Shown piece by piece: positions 15,000 to 31,107 of a stretch of DNA of 34,860 nucleotides. Within the stretch, counting starts at the first letter, position 1. The number at the start of each line of letters is the position of its first letter. The DNA lies in assembly GCA_913051705.1 (NCBI GenBank), contig CAJXCW010000021.1, forward strand, positions 1-34,860, in the 5' to 3' direction. The translations under genes were made by a program, and so were the position numbers. The notes under the pieces were generated by a model. It made no database searches, was not told where the DNA came from, and saw only the letters and a program-made list of their open reading frames with translations. The DNA is from an uncultured bacterium. GTDB taxonomy: Bacteria > JAAXHH01.

Positions 15000-15061
15000 C
15001 TGATGCCTCCGGAATTATCCCTTATCCGATGCGTCTATTTGCTGAAATCCAGAGCCACCTA

Positions 15062-15089
15062 AATATATGCTGCGCCCCTTAATTGTCAA
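15062..15089 (-). promoter_or_regulatory. Promoter of the peptidase-bactofilin-atp operon
   Basis: On the minus strand TTGACA (15084-15089, 6/6) is followed after 16 bp by TATATT (15062-15067, 5/6). A start near 15055 gives a leader of about 55 nt to the ATG at 14999. No other comparable promoter is seen before atpZ. Confidence 0.65.
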
Positions 15090-15115
15090 CAGTTTATTAT
15101 ACTTCAACAAGAAAA

Positions 15116-15979
15116 TTATAAGCGCACTTTCAGCAAATCTAAAATCCGATTTAAATCGTCTATAGAATAAAACTCGATTTCTATCTTTCCCTTATGCTGC
15201 CCCTGGGATATATTAACCCTTGTTCCGAGCAGGCGCTGCATAATTTCTTCAACGGCCAGCAGGTCCGGTGATTTGCGGTCGGTACGCGGGCTGCTCTCAC
15301 GTACATCTTTAAAGCGGTTTTTGACCAGTTCTTCGACCTTACGGACAGACAGCCCCTTTCTTACAACCTGCTTACATAGTTCCGTCTGCTCAGCCCTGTT
15401 TTCCAACCCCAACAAGGCCCGGGCATGTCCCATGGAAATGTCGTTGGCCAATAAATGATGCTGAACCTCTTCAGGCAGCTTTAAAAGCCTGAGCGTATTG
15501 GCCACCGTTGCCCTGTTTCTGCCAACTCGCGTAGCGACTTCTTCCTGAGTCAAATGACATTCTTCAATAAGCCTTAAATAGGCCTTTGCCTCGTGAATCG
15601 AATTCAGGTCATCCCGCTGAATATTCTCTATCAGAGACAGTTCCATCATCTCTTCGGGTGATGAAACAGACATGACAATGGCGGGAATCGTGTTAAAACC
15701 CGCTTGTTTGGCCGCCCGTAGCCGACGTTCTCCGGCGATCAACTCATACCCTTCATCTTCTTTTTTACGAATGGTAATGGGCTGGATCACCCCTTTTTCG
15801 ACAATGGACCGCGCCAGTTCGTCGAGCTTGGCCTGATCGAAAGACTGTCTTGGCTGATACGGATTAGCCGAGATTCGATCAATCGCGAGTTGAAGGATCT
15901 GCTGTCCCCCGGCATAGTCTTCCTCCATGTCAGGAATCAGTGCCTGTAATCCCCGCCCTAGAACCTTCTTCTTTGCCAC
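15116..15979 (-). CDS. parB: Chromosome-partitioning protein ParB (Spo0J family)
   Basis: CTP-dependent DNA clamp that loads at parS and drives chromosome segregation with ParA. The N-terminus KKVLGRGLQALIP is canonical, followed by NPYQPR, the CTP-binding GERRLRAA and ENIQR (ENIQRDDL), a helix-turn-helix (TQEEVATRVGRNRATVANTLRLL) and the C-terminal dimer domain. The start is a GTG, preceded by GGAGGTGATC (15984-15993), a ten-base anti-16S match. The gene overlaps parA by 50 nt. No consensus parS was found in this window. Confidence 0.96.
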   Translation of the reverse strand: MAKKKVLGRGLQALIPDMEEDYAGGQQILQLAIDRISANPYQPRQSFDQAKLDELARSIVEKGVIQPITIRKKEDEGYELIAGERRLRAAKQAGFNTIPAIVMSVSSPEEMMELSLIENIQRDDLNSIHEAKAYLRLIEECHLTQEEVATRVGRNRATVANTLRLLKLPEEVQHHLLANDISMGHARALLGLENRAEQTELCKQVVRKGLSVRKVEELVKNRFKDVRESSPRTDRKSPDLLAVEEIMQRLLGTRVNISQGQHKGKIEIEFYSIDDLNRILDLLKVRL

Positions 15980-16733
15980 TCTGGATCACCTCCCGGGCTA
16001 AACTCATATAGCTTTCCGCCCCTGATGAAAGAATATCGTACAGAATAATCGGACTGCCGAAACTTGGCGCTTCACTCAGACGCACATTCCGGGGGATGGT
16101 CGTTTTATAGACCTTATCCGCAAAATATTGCTTCGCTTCCTCTTCCACTTGTCTCGACAAATTGAGCCGTCTATCATACATCGTCAAGAGAATACCTTCT
16201 ATTTGCAATCTTTGATTCAAATGCTTCTGAATCTGTCGAATTGAGTTGAGCAATTGACCAAGCCCTTCCAGGGCATAATATTCACACTGAATGGGGATCA
16301 ACACCGAGTCGGATGCCGTCAGCGCGTTCAAAGTCAACAGGCTTAGAGACGGTGGACAATCGATCAGAATATACTCATATTCATCGCGGACCGACTTAAG
16401 AGCCGCTTCGAGCTTCCGCTCGCGCGCCATGGCTGTGACGAGTTCGATTTCGGCGCCGACCAGGCGATGATGCGCAGGCACCACATGGAGGAAGGGTATT
16501 TCCGTTTGTTGTACCGCTTCTTCCATAGGACGCTCTTCTATCAGCACTTCATAAATAGTTACATCCAACGGCCGATTCTGTAGGCCAAGACCGCTTGTCG
16601 CGTTCGACTGTGGGTCAATGTCGATCAGAATCGTCTTTTTTTCCGCCACCCCCAGACAGGCCGCTAGATTGACCGTCGTCGTTGTTTTACCAACCCCACC
16701 CTTCTGATTCGCGACGGCGATGACCTTACCCAT
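15930..16733 (-). CDS. parA: Chromosome-partitioning ATPase ParA (Soj family)
   Basis: Walker-type ATPase that forms nucleoid gradients moved by ParB. The deviant Walker A NQKGGVGKTTTTVNLAA (about 9-25), IDIDPQSNATSGLG, and IDCPPSLSLLTLNAL are present. It is of the short chromosomal type (267 aa) with no N-terminal DNA-binding extension. Its 3' end carries the parB ribosome binding site and first 16 codons, so the two are translationally linked. GGAG precedes the ATG. The 49-bp gap from ispF shows no terminator. Confidence 0.96.
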   Translation of the reverse strand: MGKVIAVANQKGGVGKTTTTVNLAACLGVAEKKTILIDIDPQSNATSGLGLQNRPLDVTIYEVLIEERPMEEAVQQTEIPFLHVVPAHHRLVGAEIELVTAMARERKLEAALKSVRDEYEYILIDCPPSLSLLTLNALTASDSVLIPIQCEYYALEGLGQLLNSIRQIQKHLNQRLQIEGILLTMYDRRLNLSRQVEEEAKQYFADKVYKTTIPRNVRLSEAPSFGSPIILYDILSSGAESYMSLAREVIQSGKEEGSRAGITGTDS

Positions 16734-16782
16734 CTGATGCTCCGCATTTAGAAGTGACCAATGAATACATGACCTGTTTACC

Positions 16783-17277
16783 TCACGTTACGTTATCTAT
16801 TGATTGTATCAATACAACAGCATGGGCAGCGATACCTTCTTCACGCCCGGTAAATCCAAGCTGTTCCGATGTCGTCGCTTTGACCGATACCCTATCTACA
16901 GAAAAACCGAGCGCTTTACCTATCTCACTACGTATGGCCATGATATGAGGCGCCAGTTTGGGTCTTTGTGCCACGACCGTGGCATCCACATTCGATACAG
17001 TATAACCTGCTTCCTGCACCACGTCAACGATCCGTTCCAGCAATATGATACTCGAAATATCCCGGTACTGTTCATCCGTATCCGGAAAATGCCAACCAAT
17101 ATCCCCCAATGCGGCGGCGCCCAAAAGGGCATCGCCAATGGCGTGACATAGAACATCCGCATCCGAATGGCCGAATAATCCTCTGTCATGAGGGATCGTT
17201 ACCCCACCGATGATGCATGGTCGGCCTTCCACGAGCGCATGCACATCATATCCGTATCCTACGCGTATATCGGTCAT
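16783..17277 (-). CDS. ispF: 2-C-methyl-D-erythritol 2,4-cyclodiphosphate synthase
   Basis: Fifth step of the MEP isoprenoid pathway: it cyclises the CDP-ME 2-phosphate to MEcPP. The metal site D-V-H (D11, H13), the [19 protein letters not shown] segment, [10 protein letters not shown] and the C-terminal [19 protein letters not shown] are intact. Length 164 aa is normal. It lies downstream of ispD with a 121-bp gap filled by an octamer repeat. No Shine-Dalgarno is visible before the ATG, only repeat sequence. Confidence 0.97.
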
Positions 17278-17286
17278 GGGAAACGG

Positions 17287-17396
17287 GAAGCTACGAATCG
17301 CGAAACGACGAAGCTACGAACCCCGAAGGGCTCTAAATCACAGTTAGGTGGCTTACATCATCAGAAAATACATAGCTTCGTCGTTTCGTAGCCTCC
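17287..17396. repeat. Octamer repeat pair (GAAnnnAC) between ispD and ispF
   Basis: The left arm reads GAAGCTAC, GAATCGC, GAAACGAC, GAAGCTAC, GAACCCC, GAAGGGC in tandem. The right arm, inverted, reads GGCTACGAAACGACGAAGCTA. A 16-bp perfect inverted match (17301-17316 with 17373-17388) would form a stem around a 56-nt loop. It fills nearly the whole gap between the two isoprenoid genes. Confidence 0.75.
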
Positions 17397-17398
17397 CC

Positions 17399-18091
17399 TC
17401 ATATCCTGCCTTGTCGGTGCAGAATGCGTTCTGCGGTGTCCAGATCCTCCGGCGTGGTGATTTTTATATTGTCATAATCACCATGCAGGATGTGCACGTC
17501 ATGGCCGGCCCACTCAACCAGCGCCGCATCATCTGTACCGATATAATTCTCCTGCCGAGCCTTTTCGTGGGCTTCCCGTAGAATCTGACAGGTAAACGTC
17601 TGCGGCGTTTGCGCCAGCCAGAGCGTTGACCGGTCCAGTGTGGTTTCCACCATGCCGCCCCGGACGATCTTGATCGTATCCTTCGCCGGCACCGCCACAA
17701 GGACTGCGCCGTCCCGCCGGCATTGACGGATGGACGCGCTGATCAAGACCGGATCAATACATGGACGCGCGGCATCATGAATTAGAACCACATCGGTGTC
17801 CACGTCAAGCGTCTTTAATCCGTTAAATACAGATTCTTGTCTCGTGGCCCCGCCGGCGACAACATCCAACACGCGTTGATAACCGAATGCATCAACGATC
17901 TCATGCCGGCAGGCTTCCGGTTTTGACGGTTCCACTACGATAATATACCCATCCACCAACGGGCACTGATCTAATACATCCAGCGTATGAGCAAGGATCG
18001 GCCGGCCGCCGATTCGTATATACGGTTTCTCGACCTCGGTCTGCATCCGCAGGCCCTGACCGGCTGATGGTATAATCGCTATAACCTTCAT
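17399..18091 (-). CDS. ispD: 2-C-methyl-D-erythritol 4-phosphate cytidylyltransferase
   Basis: Third step of the MEP pathway: CTP plus MEP gives CDP-ME. The nucleotide-binding start IPSAGQGLRM with KPYIRIGGRPIL, then GGATRQESVFNGL, IHDAARPC, and YIGTDDAALVEWAGHDV are present. The 230-aa length is normal. It overlaps queA by 4 nt (ATGA type), so the two are probably co-transcribed. Partner ispF follows. Confidence 0.96.
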   Translation of the reverse strand: MKVIAIIPSAGQGLRMQTEVEKPYIRIGGRPILAHTLDVLDQCPLVDGYIIVVEPSKPEACRHEIVDAFGYQRVLDVVAGGATRQESVFNGLKTLDVDTDVVLIHDAARPCIDPVLISASIRQCRRDGAVLVAVPAKDTIKIVRGGMVETTLDRSTLWLAQTPQTFTCQILREAHEKARQENYIGTDDAALVEWAGHDVHILHGDYDNIKITTPEDLDTAERILHRQGRI

Positions 18092-19125
18092 ATAATCATC
18101 ATCGCATCGCCGTAGCTGTAGAAACGGTATTTCTCTCGAACAGCCTCTTCATACGCGTGTAACGTTCGTTCAATACCTGCGAATGCACAGACCAGCATAA
18201 GCAGGGTAGATTTCGGCAGGTGGAAGTTGGTTACCAGCACGTCCACGAGACGAAAACCATAGGGAGGATAGATGAAACGCGTGGTTCGGCCCTCATAGTC
18301 ACGTATTTCGTGATGATCAGCATACTCGACGGCAAGCGTTTCGAGCGTACGTACCGTCGTGGTGCCCACAGCGACAATTCTACCTGTTTGTTTATGCATG
18401 ACAATATCCTGTACCGCTGATGCCTCTACTCGAAAATATTCAGCGTCCATAATGTGTTCTTCAATCGTCTCGGACCGCACTGGTTGAAACGTCCCCGGCC
18501 CCACATGCAGAAGAACATGTTTTATAGACGTGCCTTGGGATCTTATACGGGCCAACAACGATTCTGTAAAGTGCAGGCCTGCTGTCGGCGCCGCCACGGC
18601 ACCGATTTCATCGGCATATACGGTCTGATATCGATCCCGGTCATTTGACGATGGATCACGCTGAATATAGGGCGGTAAGGGGAGCCGACCTATCCGTTCG
18701 ATGGTGCGAGGAACATCAACCTCATCGGCAAATCGGACATAACGGGGTTCATGACCGGGAACGTTATCTACCGTTGCGATCAATGCTCCGTTCTCCAACA
18801 AAAGCCTGGTTCCTGCGCCAAGCCGTGCGCCTGGGCGCAACATCGCCTCCCAGCGTCCGGATTCATCCTCGCGAATCAACACGACTTCCACCTGCCCGCC
18901 GGTCTTTTCCCGTACGCCGCGTAATCGGGCCTGCATAACACGTGTTCGGTTGAGTACCAGCGCATCAGACGGTCGAAGGTAATCAACAATATCCTTAAAA
19001 TACCGATGCTCGATCACACCTGTCTGCCTGTGTAAAACCATCAGTCGAGAGGCGTCGCGCGGTTCGACGGGATATTGGGCGATCAATGATTCGGGCAGCC
19101 GATAATTAAACTGGTCTATATTCAC
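18088..19125 (-). CDS. queA: S-adenosylmethionine:tRNA ribosyltransferase-isomerase
   Basis: Makes epoxyqueuosine in tRNA by transferring the ribosyl part of SAM to the preQ1 base. Family signatures are LPESLIAQYPVEPRDASRLMVL, LNRTRVMQARL, PTAGLHFT and HVLLHVGPGTFQPV. The frame extends to a GTG at 19161, but those 12 residues are translated GAACTCG repeat. The GTG at 19125 gives the usual N-terminus and 345 aa, and is preferred. No strong ribosome binding site is seen because the repeat abuts the start. Confidence 0.96.
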   Translation of the reverse strand: MNIDQFNYRLPESLIAQYPVEPRDASRLMVLHRQTGVIEHRYFKDIVDYLRPSDALVLNRTRVMQARLRGVREKTGGQVEVVLIREDESGRWEAMLRPGARLGAGTRLLLENGALIATVDNVPGHEPRYVRFADEVDVPRTIERIGRLPLPPYIQRDPSSNDRDRYQTVYADEIGAVAAPTAGLHFTESLLARIRSQGTSIKHVLLHVGPGTFQPVRSETIEEHIMDAEYFRVEASAVQDIVMHKQTGRIVAVGTTTVRTLETLAVEYADHHEIRDYEGRTTRFIYPPYGFRLVDVLVTNFHLPKSTLLMLVCAFAGIERTLHAYEEAVREKYRFYSYGDAMMII

Positions 19126-19127
19126 CA

Positions 19128-19190
19128 ACGAGTTCCGAGTTCCGAGTTCCGAGTTAGACACGAGGTGTTTTTACTCGGAACTCGGAACTT
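19128..19190. repeat. GAACTCG heptamer inverted repeat between ruvB and queA
   Basis: On the minus strand AGTTCCGAGTTCCGAGT is followed by an 18-nt loop and then ACTCGGAACTCGGAACT, a perfect 17-bp stem. The loop itself can pair ACAC with GTGT. It fills the whole gap between the ruvB stop and the queA start. A second, decayed copy is at 31950-32023. Confidence 0.85.
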
Positions 19191-20219
19191 TCAATCAAAC
19201 AAACTTTCTTGTCGACGCCTGGGCTCAAGTCCCAGATGCTTGTATGCCATCTCGGTCACCACGCGCCCGCGTGGTGTTCTTTTGATGAATCCCTGTATAA
19301 TAAGATACGGCTCGTAGACTTCTTCGAGCGTACCGCTTTCTTCACTCACGGCTATGGCCAGCGTATTCAGGCCGACCGGACCGCCATCGTATTTCTCTAT
19401 AATCGTTGCCAGGATCAGCCGATTCATGTCGTCGAGCCCCATATGATCCACGCGCAGCATATCGAAAGCAGCCTTGGCGACCTTGCCGGTGATATGACCA
19501 TCGGCTTTTACCTGCGCGTAGTCCCGCACCCGGCGCAGATAGCGGTTGGCGATGCGGGGCGTGCCGCGGGAACGACGTGCAATTTCCATCGCTCCCTCCT
19601 CATCGATCTGTACGCCGAGGATATTCGCAGCGCGTATCACGATGAGATACAGATTTTCAGGCGTATAGAAGTCCAGTCGTATGGGAATGGGAAAACGGGC
19701 CAGCAGAGGAGGGGTAAGCAGGCCGGCACGAGTCGTCGCCCCAACCAGGGTAAAGCCTTCCAGGGGGAGGGTCAACGAACGGGCACTAGGCCCCCGATCC
19801 ACCATAATGTCGATCTTGAAATCTTCCATCGCAGAATACATGTGTTCTTCAACCACATGGTTCAGGCGATGAATTTCGTCAATAAAAAAAACGTCACCGG
19901 ATTGGAGGTTGGTCAGCAAGCCTGCCAGGTCGGCGGGGCGCTCCAGTACCGGTCCGGCGGTGGGGCGCATATCGACGCCCATTTCGTTGGCAAGGATAGT
20001 AGCCAGGGTGGTCTTCCCTAAGCCGGGAGGGCCGTGCAGCAGCACATGATCGAGTGTGTCACCCCGGCGTTTTGCGGCTTCGACATAGAGCTGCAACTCC
20101 TCCTTGGCTTTTTCCTGACCGGGGAAATCCTCGAACCGGGTCGGCCGTAACGCTTTGTCTAATTCCGTATCTTCATCAAAACGGTCCGGATCGGTCAGGT
20201 CATGCTCTTCTTCACCCAT
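19191..20219 (-). CDS. ruvB: Holliday junction branch-migration helicase RuvB
   Basis: AAA+ motor that drives branch migration with RuvA. Walker A GPPGLGKT (about 63-70), Walker B FIDEIHRL, sensor GATTRAGLL, arginine finger region [11 protein letters not shown] and the C-terminal winged helix are intact. The 342-aa length is normal. GGGAGG inside the end of ruvA serves as ribosome binding site; the start is 1 nt after the ruvA stop. Confidence 0.98.
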
Positions 20220-20220
20220 C

Positions 20221-20826
20221 CTAGCGGCCTCCCTGCTGGAGTACTTGCCGGATGATCTGTTCTGCGGACAAAGCCTCTTCCGTATTGCCCGTTATTCGGG
20301 CCACCATCTGACGCGCCTGCGGCTGATCATAGCCCAGAGCGATCAGCCCCAAAACGGCGTCGGTTACATCGGATTGATCGCCGGAGGCCGCCAGGGGCAA
20401 TGCGTCCGATGCATCGACATCCATCTTCCCCATTTTATCACGCAATTCCATGATGAGTCGTTGTGCCGTCTTCTTTCCTATCTTTGGCAAGGTGGCCAGT
20501 TGCTTTACATCTTCGGTCAGGATAGCCGTTGTGAAATCAGCGACTGTGGTACCGGAAAGGATATTCAACGCCATACCAGGCCCGATGCCGGACAGGGAGA
20601 TCAGCATTTCAAATAACCGTTTTTCGTCCGTGGTAGAAAATCCATACAGTTGGAGCACGTCTTCACGTACATGAAGATACGTCTCGACACGCACCCGGCT
20701 GTGTAGAGCGCCGAGCGCTTGAAAGCTGGATAAGGGAATATGTATGGCAAGACCGATACCACCGACATTGACCGTGATTTGTGTAGGTTGCTTTTCAGTC
20801 AGTTCCCCTTCGACGAAAGCGATCAT
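20221..20826 (-). CDS. ruvA: Holliday junction DNA-binding protein RuvA
   Basis: Tetrameric junction-binding platform for RuvB. It has the OB-fold domain, two helix-hairpin-helix motifs ([14 protein letters not shown] and [16 protein letters not shown]) and the flexible link to the C-terminal UBA-like domain ([19 protein letters not shown]) that contacts RuvB. 201 aa. It starts 4 bp after ruvC. Confidence 0.97.
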
Positions 20827-20830
20827 CCAA

Positions 20831-21310
20831 TCATATCCTTCCTAATGTCCGTTGGGTATGACACAAAGCTATGGCGACGGCATCCGCTGCATCTGCCGGT
20901 TTAGGGACCCGAGGCAGTTTCAGTATGGCACGCACCATATACTGCACCTGTTCCTTCGACGCGGCGCCGACGCCGACCACAGCCATCTTCACTTCACGCG
21001 GCGCATATTCCGAGACCGGCAAGTCCCTGTTGGCAACCGCCAGCAGAGCAACGCCACGGGCATGTCCCAGGGTCAATGCCGCCTTGGGATATCGACCGGC
21101 AAACATCGATTCGATGGCCACCTGCTCCGGCTTATGTGTATCTATGACCTGACACAACCCATCATAGATTTGCTTTAACCGATCCGGTAGGGCCTGGCCC
21201 GATTTGGTACGGATGGCCCCACATTCAATGAGCTTGCAATGTCGACCCTGCTTTGTGATTACCCCGTAGCCTGTAATCACACTACCGGGATCAATACCGA
21301 GAATAATCAT
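20831..21310 (-). CDS. ruvC: Holliday junction resolvase RuvC
   Basis: Endonuclease that resolves junctions held by RuvAB. The acidic residues are in place: D7 in ILGIDPG, Glu in QVAIESMF, and the DAADAVAIALCH end. The 159-aa length is normal. Upstream, two octamer-type units lie where a ribosome binding site would be expected, and none is clear. Complete ruvCAB cluster. Confidence 0.97.
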   Translation of the reverse strand: MIILGIDPGSVITGYGVITKQGRHCKLIECGAIRTKSGQALPDRLKQIYDGLCQVIDTHKPEQVAIESMFAGRYPKAALTLGHARGVALLAVANRDLPVSEYAPREVKMAVVGVGAASKEQVQYMVRAILKLPRVPKPADAADAVAIALCHTQRTLGRI

Positions 21311-21320
21311 TGTTGGGAAA

Positions 21321-21337
21321 CGTCGATTCGTTGTTTC
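21321..21337. repeat. Two octamer units upstream of ruvC
   Basis: On the minus strand GAAACAAC and GAATCGAC stand in tandem in the 31-bp gap between yebC and ruvC. They match the GAAnnnAC formula of the larger arrays. With only two units this may be chance, but the position between genes fits. Confidence 0.4.
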
Positions 21338-21341
21338 ATCC

Positions 21342-22091
21342 TTATCCGTTCATCTCCTCCAGCACCTTATCATCCATATCGAAATTGGCGTAAACATTCT
21401 GGACGTCGTCGTGCTCTTCCAGGACTTCCAGCAGGCGAAGAAGTTGCTCTGCCTCCTGGCCTTCAATAGCGACGGTAGACTGCGGAATGCGGCTGATTTC
21501 CGCCCGCAAGGGTTCAATACCGTTTTCAATCAGTTGACTTCGAACCGACTCGAATTCAGACGGCGAGGTAAATACATCAAACGTATCCCCTTCATCCTGA
21601 ATGTCCTCGGCGCCGGCGTCCAGGGCGATCATCATAATCTCATCTTCATCCTGTCCTTCTTTATTTACGACGATCAGACCTTTTTGATCGAACATCCAGG
21701 CGACGCATCCGGTATCCCCTATATTACCGCCGTTCTTGGAGAACGCATGCCGGATTTCCGGTGTGGTCCGATTTTTATTATCCGTCACCGCTTCGATCAA
21801 CACAGCGACGCCCCCCGGACCATATCCTTCATAGGTCAGCTCTTCGTACATTATGCCTTCAAGCTCACCTGTGCCGCGAGCGATAGCCCGATCGATATTG
21901 GCCTGGGGCACATTCTCAGCCCTGGATGTAAGTACCGCCGTTCTAAGCCGGGCATTGACGTTGACGTTCCCACCGCCCTCACGCGCCGCAATCGTGATCT
22001 CCTTGACCAGCTTTGTAAATATCCTACCTCGCTGGGCATCGTTCTTCTCTTTTTTTCGTTTTATGGTACTCCATTTGGAATGCCCGGACAT
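21342..22091 (-). CDS. yebC: YebC/PmpR-TACO1 family protein
   Basis: Member of the widespread YebC family, described as transcription regulators and, for some members, as translation factors easing ribosome stalling at proline runs. The N-terminal signature GHSKWSTIKRKK, then RAENVPQANIDRAIARGTG and YEGYGPGGVAVLIEAVTDN are intact; 249 aa. Next to ruvCAB, as in many bacteria. AAGGAGGTAAC is a strong ribosome binding site. Product naming is firm, cellular role less so. Confidence 0.95.
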   Translation of the reverse strand: MSGHSKWSTIKRKKEKNDAQRGRIFTKLVKEITIAAREGGGNVNVNARLRTAVLTSRAENVPQANIDRAIARGTGELEGIMYEELTYEGYGPGGVAVLIEAVTDNKNRTTPEIRHAFSKNGGNIGDTGCVAWMFDQKGLIVVNKEGQDEDEIMMIALDAGAEDIQDEGDTFDVFTSPSEFESVRSQLIENGIEPLRAEISRIPQSTVAIEGQEAEQLLRLLEVLEEHDDVQNVYANFDMDDKVLEEMNG

Positions 22092-22116
22092 GTTACCTCC
22101 TTACCTGTGGAGCCTC

Positions 22117-24348
22117 TTACTGTACCATCACCACCTGTTTCCCCGTCCCGATATTGTTGGATGTATCTCGGGCCCGTATGGCAATAGTGTGTTCCCCGGC
22201 GTTCAAATGAGTCAATGCCAAATTAAACGTCTCTTCCCTCGAATCTGCGACACCATCGGTAGGATAAACGACCAGCCAGTCTCCGCCGTCGATAGCGTAT
22301 TCCACCTTAAATACCGGACTGGCGACATCCTGTACAGTAAATGACAATGTGAGGCGATTCATTTTGATATCTGCGATACGAGGCGCCGTATTATCTACAA
22401 GAAACGGTTCACTGATCATCTCTGATCGCAAGGTCTGATCCGGTGGGTTGGAGGGGGCATCGCTAACCGTCACCTTTACGGTATACATGCCATCAGGAAA
22501 GGTTTCAGAATCCCATGAATAGGAGGGATTGTGTAAATCATCCTTCAGCAGCTTCCACTGGGTTTCCCCTTCTCCAAGAAAATATATAGCATAGGACAAC
22601 ATATCCTGATTCGAATCTGTCGCATTAATTGCTACAGCCCGAAAACCCTTCTTATAGGCAGGCGTCCCGGATGAGCCCTGTCGCTTGTTGGCCCGATTGC
22701 CGATCTGTCCGGCAATTTTAGGCGGCAGATCGTTCTGTCCATTAGTACCGTTGGATGAATCGCGCAAATATACGCCTGGCTCATACACGGTAAGGGAATT
22801 CACCATCGGAGCTACATTACGGGTCAGGTAGGCAATCGACACACTGGATACGCGCGGCGACAGATCGTTTCTGGTATTCAGTACAGCTTTCCATTGAATA
22901 TAACGCGTAGCAGGGCAGGAGATAGATTCCCCATCAGGATCGGTATACGGCCCGGTCCAGTTACTCCAGGTTTTATCCGGCGAATCCGTATTACCGGACC
23001 GTACATAGAATTGTACGGTCGTACCGTCTGGTTGTGTACCATCCCAGCGAATACGCCCCCACAAGGACGTACTCTGTGTATCCTTGACCTCGGACTCGAA
23101 CGTCCCTTCTCGAACAGGCTGCCTGCTCATACTATAGATATTACCAAGATTACTTGCCGCAACCATGATCCGGCCGGATGAGGTATGCATGAAGGCGGTA
23201 ATCTGGGCTTCTGCAAGTTGGGCCAATATTGTGCTTCGGCCGCGTTCCCGGACAGCATAGAGTTTTCCACTTGGCCCTGTACCAATTAACAAGACGCCGT
23301 CCTCTCGGCTTGCAAGGGCCAGACCCGTATCTTCCCGTGAACGCCACCACTCCTCTACCACACCGTCCGTTCGAATTCTGTATACAATGCCGCCGCCCGA
23401 ACCGGAAGAACGAACTGTCGTAGCGGATGATCTGCCATTCGGTGATGCGGTCACTTCGATCACCCCCACATCCAGTTCATTCGATGGCCTGTTGGATGCA
23501 GACGGAGACGCCCGCGTTGGCGGGAGTTGACTGCCGACCTGTCGTCTGATACGAGGCTCATTCAATGCCCCGGCATAGATGGAGCCATCGGCATCTACCA
23601 GCAAGGTATGGACTTCCTGGTAGGGCGAATCATACAGCACGGAAACCGTTCCGGCAGACGTGATACGATACACACGGCCGTTGGGCTCGGTACCGGCAAT
23701 CAGGTTTCCTTCCAGATCCATAGCCAACGCGACCACATGAGTCTCTTCTGTTTCCGCAAGGATAGCGGCGCGACCATTTTTATCGATTTTGTAAATCCGA
23801 CCCTGCTCACCAGTACCCGCATACAGATTACCGGAGGCGTCAATGGTCAGGGCCCATATATATCGAACAGGTTGGTCGGAGGTGTTATTTTCATTGGGAT
23901 CAAAAAAAATCGACGACTGACCTTCAGGGGTCACTTTATAGACCTTGCCGTCGGGGAAGGTGGAGACATAAATATGGTCAGAGGCGTCAATGGCCACGCT
24001 GTGGATCTCCAACTCATCTACATCGAAGAATATCCGACCTTGGCCGTTGGCATCAATCTGATACAACTTACCGTCGTTGCCGGTACCAGCATATAGATGG
24101 CCCTTTGAATCGGAGGCCAAACACCAGACTAAAGGTTCATTTGTCTCAAACAAAGAAGCCAACGACGGCGAGAGCGTCAGGTATCCTTGACTGGCAATAG
24201 ATATATGAAGGGGGTCACCTTTCTGGAAATCCCGTTGACTGGACTGTTCCCATATCACCGGCGTTGAAGCCTGCGATGTATTGATCATCAACAGGCCGAT
24301 CATCATCAGACCGACATGTCCCCACCCCATATGATACTTCACAGGCAT
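22117..24348 (-). CDS. Exported seven-bladed propeller protein with Ig-like C-terminus
   Basis: A 743-aa protein with a signal peptide (VGLMMIGLLMINTSQA). At least seven blade motifs of the form (L/I)YAGT..(N/D)G(K/R)(L/V)Y.I recur from about residue 75 to 410 (for example LYAGTGNDGKLYQID, LYAGTGEQGRIYKID, LIGTGPSGKLYAV). A Ser/Gly-rich insertion interrupts them around 270-320. The C-terminal third has Ig/fibronectin-like parts, one starting VDNTAPRI. It begins 3 bp after the S55 protein stop; an in-frame GTG at 24342 is better spaced from GGAG. Probably works with its upstream partner in the periplasm or at the surface. Ligand unknown. Confidence 0.82.
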   Translation of the reverse strand: MPVKYHMGWGHVGLMMIGLLMINTSQASTPVIWEQSSQRDFQKGDPLHISIASQGYLTLSPSLASLFETNEPLVWCLASDSKGHLYAGTGNDGKLYQIDANGQGRIFFDVDELEIHSVAIDASDHIYVSTFPDGKVYKVTPEGQSSIFFDPNENNTSDQPVRYIWALTIDASGNLYAGTGEQGRIYKIDKNGRAAILAETEETHVVALAMDLEGNLIAGTEPNGRVYRITSAGTVSVLYDSPYQEVHTLLVDADGSIYAGALNEPRIRRQVGSQLPPTRASPSASNRPSNELDVGVIEVTASPNGRSSATTVRSSGSGGGIVYRIRTDGVVEEWWRSREDTGLALASREDGVLLIGTGPSGKLYAVRERGRSTILAQLAEAQITAFMHTSSGRIMVAASNLGNIYSMSRQPVREGTFESEVKDTQSTSLWGRIRWDGTQPDGTTVQFYVRSGNTDSPDKTWSNWTGPYTDPDGESISCPATRYIQWKAVLNTRNDLSPRVSSVSIAYLTRNVAPMVNSLTVYEPGVYLRDSSNGTNGQNDLPPKIAGQIGNRANKRQGSSGTPAYKKGFRAVAINATDSNQDMLSYAIYFLGEGETQWKLLKDDLHNPSYSWDSETFPDGMYTVKVTVSDAPSNPPDQTLRSEMISEPFLVDNTAPRIADIKMNRLTLSFTVQDVASPVFKVEYAIDGGDWLVVYPTDGVADSREETFNLALTHLNAGEHTIAIRARDTSNNIGTGKQVVMVQ

Positions 24349-24351
24349 CTC

Positions 24352-26166
24352 CTATTGCTTTACGGTCAATCGTCCCCGGCTCTGTCCGGTAATGACATAG
24401 TCTGTTTCAATAACTTTTTCAGCCAGCACCAACTCCCGAATGACGGTAAAACTGCCGTTAATCCGGTCTGAATTCATGACCGAAAGCACCGACGGCGGTA
24501 AGGCAGGCATCTCTGTGCCTTTAACAAAGCCCCCTGTGTTCGTCTGATATAATTTAACGTACACGCGATTATTGGTGCGTCGTTTGTTCAGCAGGCCTAT
24601 TAACTGTTCTACATCATCGGGCCGAAACCGTTGGGGCGCCGATCTCATTTCATGTTGCGCAAGCGCCTGTGCGCTGCCTACAAGTATCTGTACCGTACCT
24701 CTCTCAAGATGCTTCGGTACAGGTATTTTAATTTTTTTAATGATCCGGTCACCACGATACGGCCGGAGGAACACACTAACCTCAAGTTCGTCTCCGGGGT
24801 GCACTTCGTTCTGATTATACCACACCCCTTCAATGACCGCCGTACGGCGGTCGCTGGTAGACCGGATCGTCAAATTCAGGGATTCGATGTGCGGCGTGAC
24901 AAACCGATTATCGAGTACGATGTTCAGCATCCGGGTCACATTCGTGGTCATGGAAAGTAACGTAAGCTGTCCCGAAAACAAATCATCAAGCATAATATCC
25001 GGATACCCGCGCATGGCTACCCGGCCGGCCAGCCGGATCGTTCGCTCCCCGCCCAGGCGGCCATTTCCCAAAATGGTATTTGCTACGCCCATATTCACCA
25101 GCGTAGGTGTCCATGCGGTCGACATCATAACGTCGAATTGATAGGTATTGACCAGTTGATTGCCGACATGCAAAGCGATTTCTACCGGGATCATTTGTGC
25201 TGTATCTCCGAGTTTGCCGTACAGTCCATTGGTGTGATCCCAAAGTACCGCACCGACGACTTTAGTTACATTACCGATTTTGGTAGAAGAAGCCTGATCC
25301 GGTATCACAGTAATGATATCCGCCTGGGTCATCGGGATGTTCAATGCCCCGGACCACAGGTAAGGATGGCCAAAAGCCAGGATGGTCTTATCGTTTCGAT
25401 AGGTTACGGTACCGGTACCTGCCATATTGAAATCGCCCCGGATAAGCTGGGCGCCGACGGCGGAGCCCGGTTCCAGTGTATGTTCGTCGATACGCGGTAT
25501 GTTTTCGGTCTCCTCTGTCTGTATACTCCCGCCGCCACCCATCAATGGAATCAATCCCTTTTGACGGAAGGTGTTTTCAAAAAGCTTTACCGCCGCCGGG
25601 TTGAAGCCGGAGAAAACCATAGGAACACTGATGGGTTTCAGAAAAGGTGTATCAGACGATGGGCCAACGGGTTGAACGGGCGCACGCATTTCCCGTAAAC
25701 CCGAACCGGATTGATCTACCGGTTCACCGTCTTTGGGCTGGGAATCATACGTCACCGCATCCTGGATGGCCAGCATCTGGCCTATCGGCGTAATACCGGC
25801 GATGGGTTCTTTAGGCAATTGGCCGAAGCTATAGGCCAATGCGCCGACGAGTTTACCATCGATATATATCGGACTGCCGCTCATGCCGGCAATAACGCCT
25901 GCATCATCCACATACGGACCGGATACCCGGACCATGATTAGATCATGCTTCGCATAGAATATGTTTTTCATGATCCCGAGCACTTCGACATAAAATGTAT
26001 CTATCTGGGTACCCTGGAAAACTGTCAGACCGTATCCTCTCATACCCGGCTTCACTTCTTTAATATCCATGAACTCACTGGAGGTCTGACACCAGACCGG
26101 GCGTATGCCAAAAAGAAGAAACGCCATCCAAAGCCAGATATACGGACGGCGGCGTATATCCATCAT
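24352..26166 (-). CDS. SpoIVB-like S55 peptidase-domain protein, exported
   Basis: A 604-aa exported protein (hydrophobic WLWMAFLLFGI, cut near VWC or WCQ). VKPGMRGYGLTVFQG and IAGMSGSPIYIDGKLVGALAY match the serine-protease region of the S55 family, with the likely nucleophile near residue 96. GSAVGAQLIRGD then ILAFGHPY, near 265, resembles the His region of SpoIVB, where it precedes the Ser. The order is thus reversed. The C-terminal half has no name I recognise. The start at 26166 is nine bases from GAGG; ATGs at 26175 and 26181 are alternatives. No sporulation genes are nearby, so a signalling or processing role outside spores is likely. It is translationally close to the propeller gene. 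Confidence 0.8.
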   Translation of the reverse strand: MMDIRRRPYIWLWMAFLLFGIRPVWCQTSSEFMDIKEVKPGMRGYGLTVFQGTQIDTFYVEVLGIMKNIFYAKHDLIMVRVSGPYVDDAGVIAGMSGSPIYIDGKLVGALAYSFGQLPKEPIAGITPIGQMLAIQDAVTYDSQPKDGEPVDQSGSGLREMRAPVQPVGPSSDTPFLKPISVPMVFSGFNPAAVKLFENTFRQKGLIPLMGGGGSIQTEETENIPRIDEHTLEPGSAVGAQLIRGDFNMAGTGTVTYRNDKTILAFGHPYLWSGALNIPMTQADIITVIPDQASSTKIGNVTKVVGAVLWDHTNGLYGKLGDTAQMIPVEIALHVGNQLVNTYQFDVMMSTAWTPTLVNMGVANTILGNGRLGGERTIRLAGRVAMRGYPDIMLDDLFSGQLTLLSMTTNVTRMLNIVLDNRFVTPHIESLNLTIRSTSDRRTAVIEGVWYNQNEVHPGDELEVSVFLRPYRGDRIIKKIKIPVPKHLERGTVQILVGSAQALAQHEMRSAPQRFRPDDVEQLIGLLNKRRTNNRVYVKLYQTNTGGFVKGTEMPALPPSVLSVMNSDRINGSFTVIRELVLAEKVIETDYVITGQSRGRLTVKQ

Positions 26167-26221
26167 GTGATCCATCCTCATATCAAATCAGATAACCATA
26201 ACAAACGTAGAGTATCTCCGC

Positions 26222-26250
26222 AATATACAGACGAAAATATATCGGAGCAA
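26222..26250 (-). promoter_or_regulatory. Possible promoter of the S55-propeller pair
   Basis: On the minus strand TTGCTC (26245-26250, 3/6) is followed by a 17-bp spacer and TATATT (26222-26227, 5/6), about 40 bp before the start codons. The -35 is weak. Confidence 0.4.
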
Positions 26251-26299
26251 CTTCTTTCTCTGATGTACATTTATGAGTTATTATCAAAATAGAAAGCGC

Positions 26300-26329
26300 T
26301 TGACTTATCAAGCAACTTACGCATGTTAT
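26300..26329 (+). promoter_or_regulatory. Possible promoter of the serine acetyltransferase gene
   Basis: TTGACT (26300-26305, 5/6) and TGTTAT (26324-26329, 4/6) with an 18-bp spacer in the divergent gap. The transcript would start about 130 nt before the gene and include the hairpin at 26363-26430. Confidence 0.4.
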
Positions 26330-26362
26330 ATGGGGTATAACAAATGCTTTAGTATCAGAGTT

Positions 26363-26430
26363 GGTGGCAGATAGCAGATGGGATTGTCATCAGAACATCG
26401 GCATCAGGATTTCACCATCTGCCATCCACC
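26363..26430. repeat. Heptamer-type inverted repeat in the cysE leader
   Basis: GGTGGCAGATAGCAGATGG (26363-26381) and CCATCTGCCATCCACC (26415-26430) pair as 8 bp (GCAGATGG/CCATCTGC) and 5 bp (GGTGG/CCACC) with an internal bulge. The left arm holds the tandem units GGCAGAT and AGCAGAT. It lies in the divergent gap just before cysE. Confidence 0.6.
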
Positions 26431-26467
26431 GCCTACGCCATAATCTACCGCCAACGGATGCAGGAAA

Positions 26468-27451
26468 ATGGATCGGCCTAAACACAGTACAGCTTCCGAT
26501 AAAAAATTGGTACCGATGTGTGAGATGGCCATGTTTGAGACACGGAACCATCTGGGCATTCTGGCTTCTCACATCGTGAATTCTTACGATGCGGATGGCG
26601 GTTTCAACCATCCTGACGGTCGGAATCTGCCATCCCGAGAACGGGTTATCTCCATATTACGAGACCTTTTAAGGTTGTGCTTTCCCGGATATTTTGGATC
26701 TGGGCCGGTCGTAAAGAACGATGTCGCTTTTTTTGTCAATGCCCTCATTGATGCCCTGTACATCCATCTTCGAGAAGAGATTGCCAGAAGCCTGATCCAC
26801 GAGGCCAGATTAAATCAGAAAAACGAAGACGCCTGTCAGGATCGGGCAGATGTTGTATCGCTGGAACTTCTGGAATCAATCCCCCGGATACGAAAGCTGC
26901 TTATGGGTGATGTGGCGGCGGCGTATAATGGTGATCCGGCCGCTAAAAGTCATGATGAAATTATTCTGAGCTATCCGTGTATTGAAGCCATCGCAACGTA
27001 TCGTATCGCCCATGAGTTGTATATCCGGCAGGCACCGCTTATTCCCAGAATCATATCCGAATATGCCCACAGCCGAACCGGCATAGATATTCATCCCGGC
27101 GCCATCATCGGTACGCACTTTTTTATCGATCACGGTACCGGTGTGGTTATCGGTGAAACAGCCCGGATCGGAAATAATGTGAAATTGTATCAGGGCGTAA
27201 CGCTGGGGGCTTTAAGCTTTCGTAAAGACATTGATGGAAGCCTGGTAAAAGGAGGTAAAAGGCATCCTACGATAGATGACGAGGTGGTTATTTATTCCGG
27301 GGCGACTATTTTAGGTGGCGATACGACCATCGGGCATAATTCAGTCATCGGGGCGAATGTCTGGTTGACGGGATCGGTTCCTCCGCACACCAAGGTAACG
27401 ATCGGCTCCCCCACGATGGAGGTTGTGCCAAAGGATGCCCGTACTGCTTGA
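26468..27451 (+). CDS. cysE: Serine O-acetyltransferase
   Basis: Transfers acetyl from acetyl-CoA to L-serine, feeding cysteine synthesis. An N-terminal helical domain (about 1-200) carries the SAT region (DPAAKS.DEIILSYPC, YRIAHELY). Then come hexapeptide repeats of the left-handed beta helix (GIDIHPGAIIG, FIDHGTGVVIGETARIG, VKLYQGVTLGA). The catalytic His residues in IHPGA and IDHGTG are present. At 327 aa it is longer than the E. coli enzyme and resembles the longer EpsC/SAT-type proteins. It ends in DARTA rather than the terminal Ile used to dock cysteine synthase. The start lacks a clear ribosome binding site, so it is tentative. Confidence 0.9.
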   Translation: MDRPKHSTASDKKLVPMCEMAMFETRNHLGILASHIVNSYDADGGFNHPDGRNLPSRERVISILRDLLRLCFPGYFGSGPVVKNDVAFFVNALIDALYIHLREEIARSLIHEARLNQKNEDACQDRADVVSLELLESIPRIRKLLMGDVAAAYNGDPAAKSHDEIILSYPCIEAIATYRIAHELYIRQAPLIPRIISEYAHSRTGIDIHPGAIIGTHFFIDHGTGVVIGETARIGNNVKLYQGVTLGALSFRKDIDGSLVKGGKRHPTIDDEVVIYSGATILGGDTTIGHNSVIGANVWLTGSVPPHTKVTIGSPTMEVVPKDARTA

Positions 27452-27483
27452 ACGACCATATCGTTCACGTGGGAGGCCTAAGT

Positions 27484-28086
27484 ATGATGCGCATGCGTAC
27501 TTTTAATCTTTTCGTAGCAGGACTGACTGTTGCCTCCTTCATGCTCGTCACACCGGTTGTACTGGCTCAATCGGTAGCGGAGGCGAAAGCCAGCGTTGAG
27601 GAAAAACCGGACGATTCACCCCGTCATTATGATCTGGGGCTGGCCTACTATAAAAACAGCCAGTATGCAGAAGCCATTACCTCGTTTCAGGCGGCAATCA
27701 AATTAAAGGCGAATTATAAAGAAGCCTATTACGAATTGGGGTTGGCGCAACAGAAAACAGGCAAAAATTCAGCCGCGATCAAGTCCTTCCAAAAAGCGAT
27801 AGAACTTGATAAAAAATATGCAGAGGCTCATGCGGCGCTGGGCAGCGCTTATCGGTCCTATAGCCAGTATTCGGTGGCGAGTCGGTCGTATCAAGCAGCT
27901 CTCAAACTCAAACCCGAACAGGCGGCCTGGCACCTCAGACTGGGCATTATCTACCAAACGATGGAAGACTATGAAAACGCTATTGCAGCCTTTGAAGCCT
28001 ACCTTAAATACACGCCCGACGAAAGTTCCAAACGCGCCAACCAGATTCGTACGTTGATTCCCCAGTTGAAGAATGCGATCAGGTGA
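27484..28086 (+). CDS. Exported TPR-repeat protein
   Basis: A 200-aa protein with a signal peptide ending near VLAQS, followed by about four tetratricopeptide repeats (DLGLAYYKNSQYAEAITSFQ, ELGLAQQKTGKNSAAIKSFQ, ALGSAYRSYSQYSVASRSYQ, RLGIIYQTMEDYENAIAAFE). The start at 27484 has GGGAGG seven bases upstream; the frame also opens earlier, overlapping cysE. TPR arrays are protein-binding scaffolds, and the partner is unknown. It follows cysE by 32 bp and may be co-transcribed. Confidence 0.88.
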   Translation: MMRMRTFNLFVAGLTVASFMLVTPVVLAQSVAEAKASVEEKPDDSPRHYDLGLAYYKNSQYAEAITSFQAAIKLKANYKEAYYELGLAQQKTGKNSAAIKSFQKAIELDKKYAEAHAALGSAYRSYSQYSVASRSYQAALKLKPEQAAWHLRLGIIYQTMEDYENAIAAFEAYLKYTPDESSKRANQIRTLIPQLKNAIR

Positions 28087-28088
28087 GG

Positions 28089-28256
28089 GAAACGACGAAG
28101 CTACGAAACGAGGAATCACGAAGTGATCCATGCGCTCCCGGAGGGAGTCATCCCATACTTTCGATTGAGCATAGCTGACTCAATCTGCGAACCTGTGAAT
28201 CATTTGTCGTTTCGTTGATTCGTAGTTTCGTAGCTTCGTTGATTCGTTGATTCCCC
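28089..28256. repeat. Octamer inverted repeat between TPR gene and trxB
   Basis: The left arm reads GAAACGAC, GAAGCTAC, GAAACGAG, GAATCAC. The right arm, on the minus strand, reads GAATCAAC, GAATCAAC, GAAGCTAC, GAAACTAC, GAATCAAC, GAAACGAC. ACGAAGCTACGAAAC (28095-28109) and its complement (28225-28239) form a perfect 15-bp stem. The array occupies both ends of the gap between convergent genes, where it could act as a two-way terminator or mRNA cap. The middle is not repetitive and shows no gene. Confidence 0.8.
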
Positions 28257-29180
28257 TCACCCCTCCAGCTCTGCAATATACTTTTCCGCTTCCATGGCGG
28301 CGGCACAGCCTGTTCCTGCGGCGGTAATGGCTTGACGAAACACGTGATCCTGCACATCTCCTCCGGCAAATACCCCTGGAACATTGGTATGCTGGCGGCG
28401 GTCGGTGAGGATATATCCCTGTTCATCCAGCTCAATTTTGCCTTCAAACAACTTGGTATTCGGAATATGACCGATGGCGATAAAAAGGCCATCTGCATCC
28501 AAAACAGTCTCTTCGTTAGTCACGACATTTTCCACCCGCACGCCGGTTACTCCAGCCTGCTTATCGCCTACCACCTCCTGCACCTTTGAATTCCAGACCA
28601 GTTCGACCTTCGGGTTATTCAATGCGCGGTCCTGCATGATTTTACTGGCACGCAATTCATCTCTACGGTGCACGATCCACACGTGGCTGGCGAACCGCGT
28701 TAGAAAGGTGCCTTCTTCCAGCGCGCTGTCTCCTCCCCCTACCACCACGACTTTTTGATTGGCATAAAACGCCCCATCGCATGTGGCGCAGGTCGATACA
28801 CCACGGCCAAAAAAGGGTTCTTCACCGGGAACATCGAGTAAACGTGAGGAAGAACCGGTGCTTATAATCACAGCTTTTGTCGTATATTCCCCCTGATCGG
28901 TGACCAGATGATGGGCGCCCGGCTGAAAATCAATGTCCATGACTTCCTCGTATTTTACAACGGCGCCGAAATGTTCCGCCTGCTGACGCATCCGTTCCAT
29001 CAGATCCGGCCCGCCGAGACCACCTGGAAATCCGGGAAAGTTCTCTATCTCACTGGTCAGAGATAACTGACCGCCAAGAACCCGACCTGTGAGTACAATC
29101 GGCGCCAGGTTGGCGCGCGCAGCATACAGGGCGGCCGTGTATCCGGACGGTCCGCCACCGATGACAATGACATTTTCCAT
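28257..29180 (-). CDS. trxB: Thioredoxin reductase
   Basis: FAD- and NADPH-dependent enzyme that reduces thioredoxin. FAD motif GGGPSGYTAALYAARA (about 8-23), the redox pair CATC (C131, C134), the NADPH motif GGGDSALEEGTFL and the C-terminal FAD motif GDVQDHVFRQA are intact. The 307-aa length is that of the low-molecular-weight type. AAGGA precedes the ATG. Confidence 0.97.
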   Translation of the reverse strand: MENVIVIGGGPSGYTAALYAARANLAPIVLTGRVLGGQLSLTSEIENFPGFPGGLGGPDLMERMRQQAEHFGAVVKYEEVMDIDFQPGAHHLVTDQGEYTTKAVIISTGSSSRLLDVPGEEPFFGRGVSTCATCDGAFYANQKVVVVGGGDSALEEGTFLTRFASHVWIVHRRDELRASKIMQDRALNNPKVELVWNSKVQEVVGDKQAGVTGVRVENVVTNEETVLDADGLFIAIGHIPNTKLFEGKIELDEQGYILTDRRQHTNVPGVFAGGDVQDHVFRQAITAAGTGCAAAMEAEKYIAELEG

Positions 29181-29202
29181 AGGGTTTTATCCTTAATATG
29201 GT

Positions 29203-29283
29203 TAAAACCAATTAGTGAACCGCGCAGCGCTCGCTGGAGCCCGTAGGGATCAGCAATTGCGACTGGTAATTGGTGATTTAAAA
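29203..29283. repeat. CCAATTA-type imperfect inverted repeat upstream of trxB
   Basis: ACCAATTA near 29209-29216 and TAATTGGT near 29262-29269 face each other, flanked by TTAAAACC-like ends on both sides, around a GC-rich centre. It resembles the other intergenic hairpins but uses a different unit. It lies in the trxB leader. Confidence 0.45.
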
Positions 29284-29354
29284 CCTTATTGTTTTCAGTC
29301 AGTTATATAAATTCATACATGACTTTTCACTTGATAATATGGTATAAGTACCTC

Positions 29355-29386
29355 AGCAAATAAAGCCATTTGCCTGTTTGCAAAAT
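29355..29386. repeat. Heptamer-type repeat (CCATTTGC) upstream of trxB
   Basis: GCAAAT then ATTTGC form a 6-bp hairpin, and CCATTTGCCTGTTTGC nearly repeats the segment at 1581-1596. It sits between the trxB leader and the transporter remnant. Confidence 0.45.
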
Positions 29387-29394
29387 AATCCACG

Positions 29395-29721
29395 TCATCC
29401 GTATTCCATCAATGGGGAGCCGTTTCCATGTGGCGGCGGTCTAATACGCATCCAGAATATGGTAGCCTCTGCCTGGCCGCCGCCCTGCGCCGCTTCGAAT
29501 CCTATGAACGTCAGGATATATCCGGAGCCGATGGCGAAGGTGATGGATTGCGTGACTTTCTGAAACCAGCCTGCTGCAGCGCCGTACATGCCTTCACGCC
29601 GAAAGCCTGTCTTCCATTCATCCCAATCGCGCATATCCGCCTTCATCGAGGTAATCAGCAGCCAGAATCCCATACCGCCGATATTCAAAAAGGGTTGTAC
29701 CACGAATTGGGGATAGGGCAA
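29395..29721 (-). pseudogene. Remnant of a GPH-family (MelB-like) sugar symporter
   Basis: A 108-codon open frame matches only an internal part of glycoside-pentoside-hexuronide:cation symporters. The membrane segment GGMGFWLLITSM is followed by the loop signature DWDEWKTGFRREGMYGA, then a helix and GFEAAQGG. Full-length members have about 450 residues and 12 helices, so at least two thirds are missing, and the end (RIRPPPHGNG) leaves the family pattern. It starts (TTG, no good ribosome binding site) 8 bp after the cupin stop, so it probably marks a lost transporter gene of the same operon. Confidence 0.75.
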
Positions 29722-29729
29722 GTGAAATT

Positions 29730-30125
29730 CTATTTGGGGCTGTGCACGTTATCTGCAATTTCATCCACGTTAGCCGAGATGTTGAGGTATTCGATATCTT
29801 CCTCGGTGTTATTGATCACCTGATGTTTGGCCAGCGGCGGTAGATGAACGGCGTCACCCGCCGTGACATCATATTCCTCGTCGTCGATCAACATCTTGCC
29901 TTTGCCAGAGATAAAATAGTATATCTGCTCTTTATCCTCGTGACTGTGATAATCCGTCGTCACTCGTCCCTGCACCACATGTCTGGTAAAATTAGCCAGG
30001 GACAGCAGGCACGCCTGATCCGGGGCATCCGGATCATCCGGATTGCGAAGGGTGAGCAGCGGCCAGATGATTTTCGTCTCATGGCCGATATAAGGGATCT
30101 GATCTCGCCAGTTCCGTATCACCAT
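29730..30125 (-). CDS. Single-domain cupin
   Basis: A 131-aa cupin. Motif 1 YHSHEDKEQIYYFISGKG supplies metal ligands H60, H62 and E66; motif 2 GDAVHLPPLAKHQVIN supplies H101. Such proteins are often sugar or sugar-acid isomerases, dioxygenases or sensors, and the substrate cannot be told. The start at 30125 follows AAAGGAGAAG; a longer frame to 30173 is unlikely. The MITE-like element lies just upstream, between it and the hydratase gene. Confidence 0.88.
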   Translation of the reverse strand: MVIRNWRDQIPYIGHETKIIWPLLTLRNPDDPDAPDQACLLSLANFTRHVVQGRVTTDYHSHEDKEQIYYFISGKGKMLIDDEEYDVTAGDAVHLPPLAKHQVINNTEEDIEYLNISANVDEIADNVHSPK

Positions 30126-30161
30126 ATTTCTTCTCCTTTGCTGATTTGTACATGTGTTATA

Positions 30162-30278
30162 AGTACACGACAAAAACCGAAAATGTTGTCATTCCCACAG
30201 GGTTTAAGCGGAAATCCATAGCGTTGAATGGCCTGGACACCCGTTTTTGCGGGTATGAAATTATTTTTGTCGTGTACT
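30162..30278. mobile_element. MITE-like element, 117 bp, with 15-bp terminal inverted repeats
   Basis: Perfect terminal repeats AGTACACGACAAAAA (30162-30176) and TTTTTGTCGTGTACT (30264-30278). There is no coding capacity. It contains a small hairpin ACCCG-TTTTTG-CGGGT near the right end. No clear target duplication is seen (flanks ATA and ATG). Its left 61 nt, read on the minus strand, align without gaps to 33615-33675. It is inserted between the cupin and hydratase genes. Confidence 0.75.
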
Positions 30279-30298
30279 ATGACATTTGTTACTTCTGA

Positions 30299-31084: not shown

Positions 31085-31107
31085 GTTTTTATCCTAAAGA
31101 GGACGCA

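Follow-up and report, generated by a model that had tools for sequence, protein, structure and literature searches.

Geobacter metallireducens has classes of repeats with octanucleotides four in tandem or heptanucleotides five in tandem, paired on opposite strands at variable distance, and binding of IHF/HU has been suggested for these arrays; elements with TWGTTGAY octamers are described there as well (PMC2700814). The heptamer GGGAATC of Xanthomonas, the function of which is unknown, is approximately 90% intergenic and forms 70-75 convergent (facing) pairs per genome (PMC4692102). That heptamers are in excess between the genes of bacteria has been on record since 2007 at the latest, with polymerase slippage named as the cause but not proved. 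Here we describe arrays of an 8-nt unit, GAAnnnAC, in a 34,860-nt stretch of DNA from an uncultured bacterium (contig CAJXCW010000021.1, positions 1-34,860; hereafter the window). A sequence-only reading of the window had found that this octamer with a variable core seems different from the tandem heptamers of cyanobacteria, a view that is only partly right, facing octanucleotide arrays being on record for G. metallireducens (PMC2700814); as paired arrays have already been described in Geobacter and Xanthomonas, the octamer as such is not unprecedented. Our data suggest, with somewhat more confidence than doubt, that the octamer arrays are the arms of dispersed intergenic hairpin elements with an anatomy like that of repetitive extragenic palindromic (REP) doublets forming hairpins (REPINs) or miniature inverted-repeat transposable elements (MITEs), whose units are gained and lost through slippage and, probably, through template switching between arrays.

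Results

The source assembly, in which the window is contig 21, is a metagenome-assembled genome (MAG) of 5.45 Mb in 405 contigs (G000; 97% complete, 5.7% contamination), the nearest named relative of which is a Candidatus Latescibacterota MAG (RuvB 81% identical). Octamer units were located at 8951-8970, 9001-9022, 17280-17320, 17372-17396, 21322-21337, 28089-28112 and 28206-28253, that is, in all four of the gaps where they had been noticed. Within the window, GAANNNACGAANNNAC with 1 mismatch gave 14 matches compared to 2.35 expected, a number reached by 0 of 100 shuffles, and GAAACGACGAAGCTACGAA with 3 mismatches gave 7 compared to 0.01 expected. The stems of 16 and 15 bp that had been read at two loci are exact reverse complements (17301-17316/17373-17388 and 28095-28109/28225-28239, respectively). 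The same two loci, hairpins A and B, have predicted RNA folds far better than shuffles (17280-17398, z = -6.7; 28087-28256, z = -6.8), but the claim that the arrays fold into long hairpins did not carry over to the other two, where predicted RNA folds were no better than shuffles (8940-9021, z = -0.55; 21311-21341, z = -0.85).

The left arm of hairpin A (17280-17320, + strand) reads GAAACGG GAAGCTAC GAATCGC GAAACGAC GAAGCTAC, with 7-mers among the 8-mers, and faces a right arm (17372-17396, - strand) that provides the 16-bp stem partner of 17301-17316; the bulge is a single 7-mer, GAATCGC, present in the left arm only. The core or loop, including part of the arm (GATGTAAGCCACCTAACTGTGATTTAGAGCCCTTCGGGGTTCGTAGC...), lies at 17301-17364 (- strand) and has copies at other loci. 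In hairpin B, the left arm (28089-28128, + strand) reads GAAACGAC GAAGCTAC GAAACGAG GAATCAC GAAGTGAT, the core or loop (28113-28188, - strand) holds two TNCG-type hairpins, ACTCCCTCCGGGAG and GATCACTTCGTGATTC, and the facing right arm (28206-28253, - strand) carries the words TCA TCA GCT ACT TCA ACG. The atpA-atpG gap contains an array pair with a left arm at 8951-8970 (+ strand; GAAGCTAC GGAACGAC GAAG) and a right arm at 9001-9022 (- strand; GAAACGAT GAAACAAC GAA), and the yebC-ruvC gap a two-unit array without a significant hairpin (21322-21337, - strand; GAAACAAC GAATCGAC).

Period-8 arrays were enriched genome-wide, and the lack of enrichment that would have refuted the sequence-only reading was not seen: GAANNNAYGAANNNAYGAA matched 131 times in the whole genome and its reversed-pattern control 3 times. 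The narrower pattern GAANCNACGAANCNACGAANC matched 75 times in the source genome but not once in the 15 other genomes compared within the phylum, and a 19-mer, GAAGCTACGAAACGACGAA, had no match in 257 Gb of other genome contigs, a collection that may omit the window's own genome. Array statistics were drawn from fetched stretches amounting to 595-715 kb of the 5.45 Mb (approximately 13% of the genome), the 595-kb set consisting of stretches picked regardless of array content, plus the window. In this set 33 tandem runs were found at period 7 and 33 at period 8 (Markov shuffles, 0-1), with periods 14 and 15, which are combinations of 7 and 8, likewise enriched and other periods not; the 715-kb set gave 42 at period 7 and 35 at period 8 compared to 0-2 at periods 4-6 and 9-13. 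GAAnnnAC is one among many unit families, which together form dozens of arrays and include the 7-nt units ATTGGTG, AATTATG, GTACAAA, CGGAACT, AAGTGGC and TACYGCY and the 8-nt units TGATTTGG, TGATTGGG, TTGTTGAT, AACTCACC, GGCAGGTR, GAAAGGAY and GAANCNAC. Arrays per 100 kb (period 7/8) numbered 5.9/4.9 in the source genome, 1.0/0 in a genus of the same family (g2), 0/0 in a further genus (g3), 18.3/4.0 and 0/0 in two genomes of the same order (G014 and G015, respectively) and 2.6/0.1 in mostly-Bacteroidota loci; a Bacteroidota-dominated comparison set of 1.36 Mb had 35 period-7 runs and 2 period-8 runs. Arrays of heptamers thus occur widely, often in facing orientation, and octamer arrays are uncommon beyond the source's order in the sampled sequence.

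Although approximately 82% of the sequence was called coding (gene calls are approximate, from a simple codon-based gene finder), 74 of 77 arrays were intergenic. All ten neighbouring array pairs of the GAA family face each other, at distances of 11-101 nt. Across all families, an inverted partner was present for 40 of 116 arms, compared to 3 in the control. Of 39 informative arms, 35 had the G-rich arm 5', a count in which paired arms are not independent of each other. Neither gene orientation nor gene ends were preferred, array density per kb being 0.65 in tandem, 0.66 in convergent and 0.48 in divergent gaps.

The GAA-family unit is better written GAA-N-C-N-AC than GAA-NNN-AC. The central C is present in 122 of 141 flanking units, and it and the anchors G, A and A are far better conserved than the remaining two core positions, which vary but are strongly linked (chi2 = 94.7, 4 df). 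Five core words are common (GCT, ACG, ACT, ACA and TCA; at full length GAAGCTAC, GAAACGAC, GAAACTAC, GAAACAAC and GAATCAAC), so the proposed small set of middle triplets stands, but as an N-C-N pattern and not as a free triplet. The arrays are mainly of 8-nt units with interspersed 7-mers (e.g., GAATCGC and GAATCAC). A rule of constant anchor plus variable triplet for all families was rejected, as mismatches were barely concentrated by phase (0.83 compared to 0.75 expected at period 8; 0.82 compared to 0.78 at period 7). A small number of words return at locus after locus in near-random order, with about 18% of word diversity between arrays and most within them, and word identity inside arrays was 0.35 for neighbours and 0.394 for all pairs compared to 0.257 in a pool shuffle. 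The words of GAA arrays are mostly a shared pool with slight local duplication.

Copies of the hairpin A loop (60 nt) are present on contig 64 (90%) and contig 106 (87%), both with octamer arms; the former lies between two tRNA genes and is bounded by GGGAAACGAC...GTAGCTTCCC. Shorter copies of hairpin A core modules occur at four other loci, and the loop of hairpin B has a module in common with several other loci, 39-48 nt long and made up of two hairpins with TNCG loops. A further core of 83 nt, Core II, with several TTCG-type hairpins (e.g., L082:15806-15888), is present 40 times or more in the source genome, the copies being 80-100% identical (40 of 85 candidates were scored; copy numbers of loops and Core II are lower bounds) and none in the 13 other genomes searched. 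It sits in phase within TGATT-type octamer arrays (GTTGATTT or GGTGATTT), and the words flanking it match each other in 17 of the 19 copies for which both sides could be scored (Fisher P = 0.001). Core II falls into two subfamilies, GATT..AATC and GATG..CATC, and the subfamily of a copy showed no clear link with its flanking word. Homologous loops and cores at unrelated loci demonstrate copying between loci. A two-hairpin module, Core I (GGCATGTGTCCTNNGGACACGATGCGAGCCCTTCGGGGTT), was also seen within TGATTTGG arrays at L034:6645-6680, L044:11991, L050:820 and L045:16434.

The closest available relatives belong to other genera, and synteny at the compared gaps is conserved in them. In the comparison of orthologous gaps that the sequence-only reading had proposed, the atpA|atpG gap is 89 bp here compared to 9-30 bp in nine relatives and the ispD|ispF gap 124 bp compared to 25-55 bp (97 in one), the relatives lacking GAA arrays in both cases, and no arrays were found in the yebC|ruvC and ruvB|queA gaps of L111. 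Since the orthologous gaps are without these arrays, the arrays are lineage-specific gains. G014 (L204, L199) has a facing array of its own in the trxB|TPR gap (GTATGGGAGTGTGGGAG / CCCCCATACACCCATAC), which is unlike the window octamers and apparently independent of the source's arrays, so that different lineages can each acquire arrays in the same gaps. The ispF|parA gap of G014 holds a CAATCCA heptamer array, and that of genus g3 (L111, L197) a different, longer tandem repeat (GGCGGGTGATCTGCGTT..., approximately 5 copies). Octamer arrays with a constant ACGTT and a variable triplet (ACGTTNNN) were also observed in G014 (L290:12706-12790 and L105:3457-3488). Four viral contigs (L324, L325, L327 and L328) carry a marine phage-like sequence with a ACGAAACGACGAAACAAC leader before ATG (AACAACGAAACGACGAAACAACGAAACAACGAAATG directly 5' of the start codon), which is probably convergent, and another (L326:9080-9226) carries a homogeneous GAAGCAAC octamer array of approximately 12 copies. 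Viral contigs were dropped as a counterpart, both the leader and the GAAGCAAC array being unlike the hairpins.

Other repeats in the window, listed without strand, include a sister heptamer hairpin in the ruvB-queA gap (19126-19189; (CGAGTTC)n / (ACTCGGA)n; fold z = -5.1), heptamer arrays of AGTTCCG with facing GGAACT repeats (31949-32022) and an octamer array of another family at the window edge (10-55; ACAAATCA, = AAATCAAC). A search of the window against Rfam gave nothing above the gathering score. Elsewhere, intergenic arrays of a second octamer family rich in purines (GAAAGGAC/GAAAGGAT) lie at L051:3968, L050:13764, L078:4778 and L266:12149, and a single gap (L269:13482-13619) contains the heptamer families AGTACAG, AGTTCCG, AGTGAAG and ACAGAGA head to tail, most of which have a common AGT anchor.

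Discussion

The enrichment, the restriction to intergenic DNA, the facing polarity, the shared words, the homologous cores and the absence from relatives' gaps are the observations on which our explanation is built. According to this explanation, GAAnnnAC arrays would be the arms (in some cases one worn arm) of hairpin elements of approximately 80-180 bp confined to intergenic DNA, with the plan GG-(octamer words)n - core with small TNCG-loop hairpins - (reverse-complement words)n-CC. The elements would be copied into new gaps, by a process that we infer to be other than a Y1 transposase of the REP-associated tyrosine transposase (RAYT) kind or a reverse transcriptase encoded in the assembly. 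Arm units may be gained, lost and exchanged when replication slips or when it switches template from one dispersed array to another, and such exchange would maintain one genome-wide vocabulary. Persistence could be explained if insertions into genes are selected against while gaps tolerate the elements. Of the origins offered in the sequence-only reading, a non-autonomous dispersed unit is the one favoured by the homologous loops at unrelated loci and the absence from orthologous gaps.

The other origin it offered, a slippage-born repeat, survives in part, as there is some local duplication. Local replication slippage at each site, with the 7-8 nt period set by the length of the polymerase-DNA contact and the facing arms formed by chance or by hairpin-templated repair, would account for the restriction of enrichment to periods 7 and 8, for the long homogeneous arrays of other families (e.g., (ATTGGTG)n and (CACCAAT)n) and for a 7-mer unit in only one arm at 17287-17396, and a role for polymerase contact in heptamers has precedent in the literature (Mrazek 2007, cited in PMC4692102 and PMC4679880). 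Purely local slippage, however, does not explain why different loci use one small set of words in near-random order or why loops at unrelated loci are homologous, and the fixed facing polarity (10/10) and the sister genera without such arrays at the same gaps also argue against it, so that we regard it as an unlikely sole cause. We give a similarly low probability to genome-wide word-copying, in which words and whole cores would pass between arrays in phase through annealing of shared anchors (GAA.C.AC, TGATT) and template switching, the arrays forming one pooled word population with fixed polarity and no dedicated transposase; Core II, which lies in phase between matching words, would then be an extra-long word.

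A role in binding proteins is improbable, and a role in RNA more so. The facing arrays could bind a protein, nucleoid-associated or other, by analogy with the proposal (IHF/HU) for G. metallireducens, where the layout is near-identical (PMC2700814), and both the conservation of the anchors G, A and A and the central C well above the other two core positions and the lack of gene-orientation bias are compatible with this. The binding in Geobacter is, however, a suggestion and not a test, many unrelated families in one genome would require many proteins or no sequence specificity, and turnover between genera is fast. Selected RNA structures, in the form of mRNA ends, terminators or mRNA-stabilizing hairpins, would fit hairpins A and B and the heptamer hairpin of the ruvB-queA gap, all with very stable predicted folds, but we consider this doubtful: array density is equal in tandem and convergent gaps and little lower in divergent ones, arm words do not co-vary within loci (no co-evolution was seen at n = 11 loci), and the arrays within the atpA-atpG operon gap have no significant fold. 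The array pair inside the atp operon and the lack of a gene-end preference make a general terminator role unlikely. Intrinsic terminators are GC-rich hairpins at gene ends with a T run behind them; a scan of 15000-34860 for a stem plus T run picked up no array, and the suggestion of an mRNA end was not upheld.

Several results weigh against the hairpin-element explanation itself. Neighbouring words in an array are more alike than in the pool shuffle (P = 0.013), which indicates that local duplication contributes, and arms of the same locus match no better than arms of different loci (0.594 compared to 0.613; n = 11 loci, P = 0.69), contrary to simple copying of an intact palindrome. The Y1 (RAYT) transposase family PF01797 had no match in the source genome (a 97% complete assembly), whereas control genomes matched, and reverse transcriptase PF00078 likewise had no match there; an origin from either was therefore dropped. 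Comparison with relatives gave no clean element boundary or target-site duplication, since the relatives are too distant to provide an exact empty site, and some arrays have neither a partner arm nor a recognizable core.

The source genome is a sharper case of the intergenic excess of short tandem units, as periods 7 and 8 are both strongly enriched whereas in the Bacteroidota-dominated set period 7 alone is. Its shared words, facing polarity and copied cores show that such arrays are built by dispersal as well as by slippage on the spot. Arrays come and go between sister genera at gaps that are known and syntenic, so that slippage and a mobile element can be directly tested against each other.

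Among dispersed hairpins, REPINs resemble the source elements in being non-autonomous, extragenic inverted pairs that form hairpins with a spacer (PMC3116915), and the source elements are indeed dispersed inverted doublets of this kind, but the arms of REPINs are a conserved REP of approximately 16 nt rather than tandem 8-mers, and they need a RAYT (Y1) gene, none of which was found in the source genome. MITEs are likewise small and dispersed, with inverted ends and no coding capacity, but have a constant terminal inverted repeat, a target-site duplication and a parent transposon, none of which is demonstrated for the source elements; the ends of the latter tend to GGGAA...TTCCC, but the arms vary and the relatives are too distant for duplication to be judged. 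The short tandemly repeated repetitive (STRR) sequences of cyanobacteria and the TAACTGA repeats of Beggiatoaceae (PMC4679880) are also short tandem intergenic arrays of patchy taxonomic distribution, but are single heptamers, mostly direct and not facing, and TAACTGA lies just upstream of start codons. The distinction drawn earlier between the octamer and the heptameric STRR is correct for the GAA family, which is mainly of 8 nt and so falls outside a heptanucleotide class, but other families of the source genome are true heptamers and facing heptamer arrays are equally common in it. Closer are the facing repeats, with which the source arrays, as convergent intergenic pairs of tandem 7-8 nt units, belong. 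The Xanthomonas GGGAATC and Nostoc GGGGAYT heptamers (PMC4692102) have heterogeneous units that vary in length and sequence among related species, but are heptamers only, are strongly G-rich (G-quadruplex-forming), are few in divergent gaps and have no reported dispersed loop core. The Geobacter arrays have in common with those described here tandem 7-8 nt units, degenerate outer units, opposite-strand pairs, tens of copies and absence from a congener, and TWGTTGAY fits the TTGTTGAT (GTTGATTT) family of the source genome. They alone have insertion sequences at a fixed distance from some sites, whereas the source genome differs in its other unit sequences, its many coexisting families, a five-word vocabulary found across loci and cores set in phase; of these features, the shared vocabulary and the in-phase cores, together with the equal use of 7 and 8, appear to be new.

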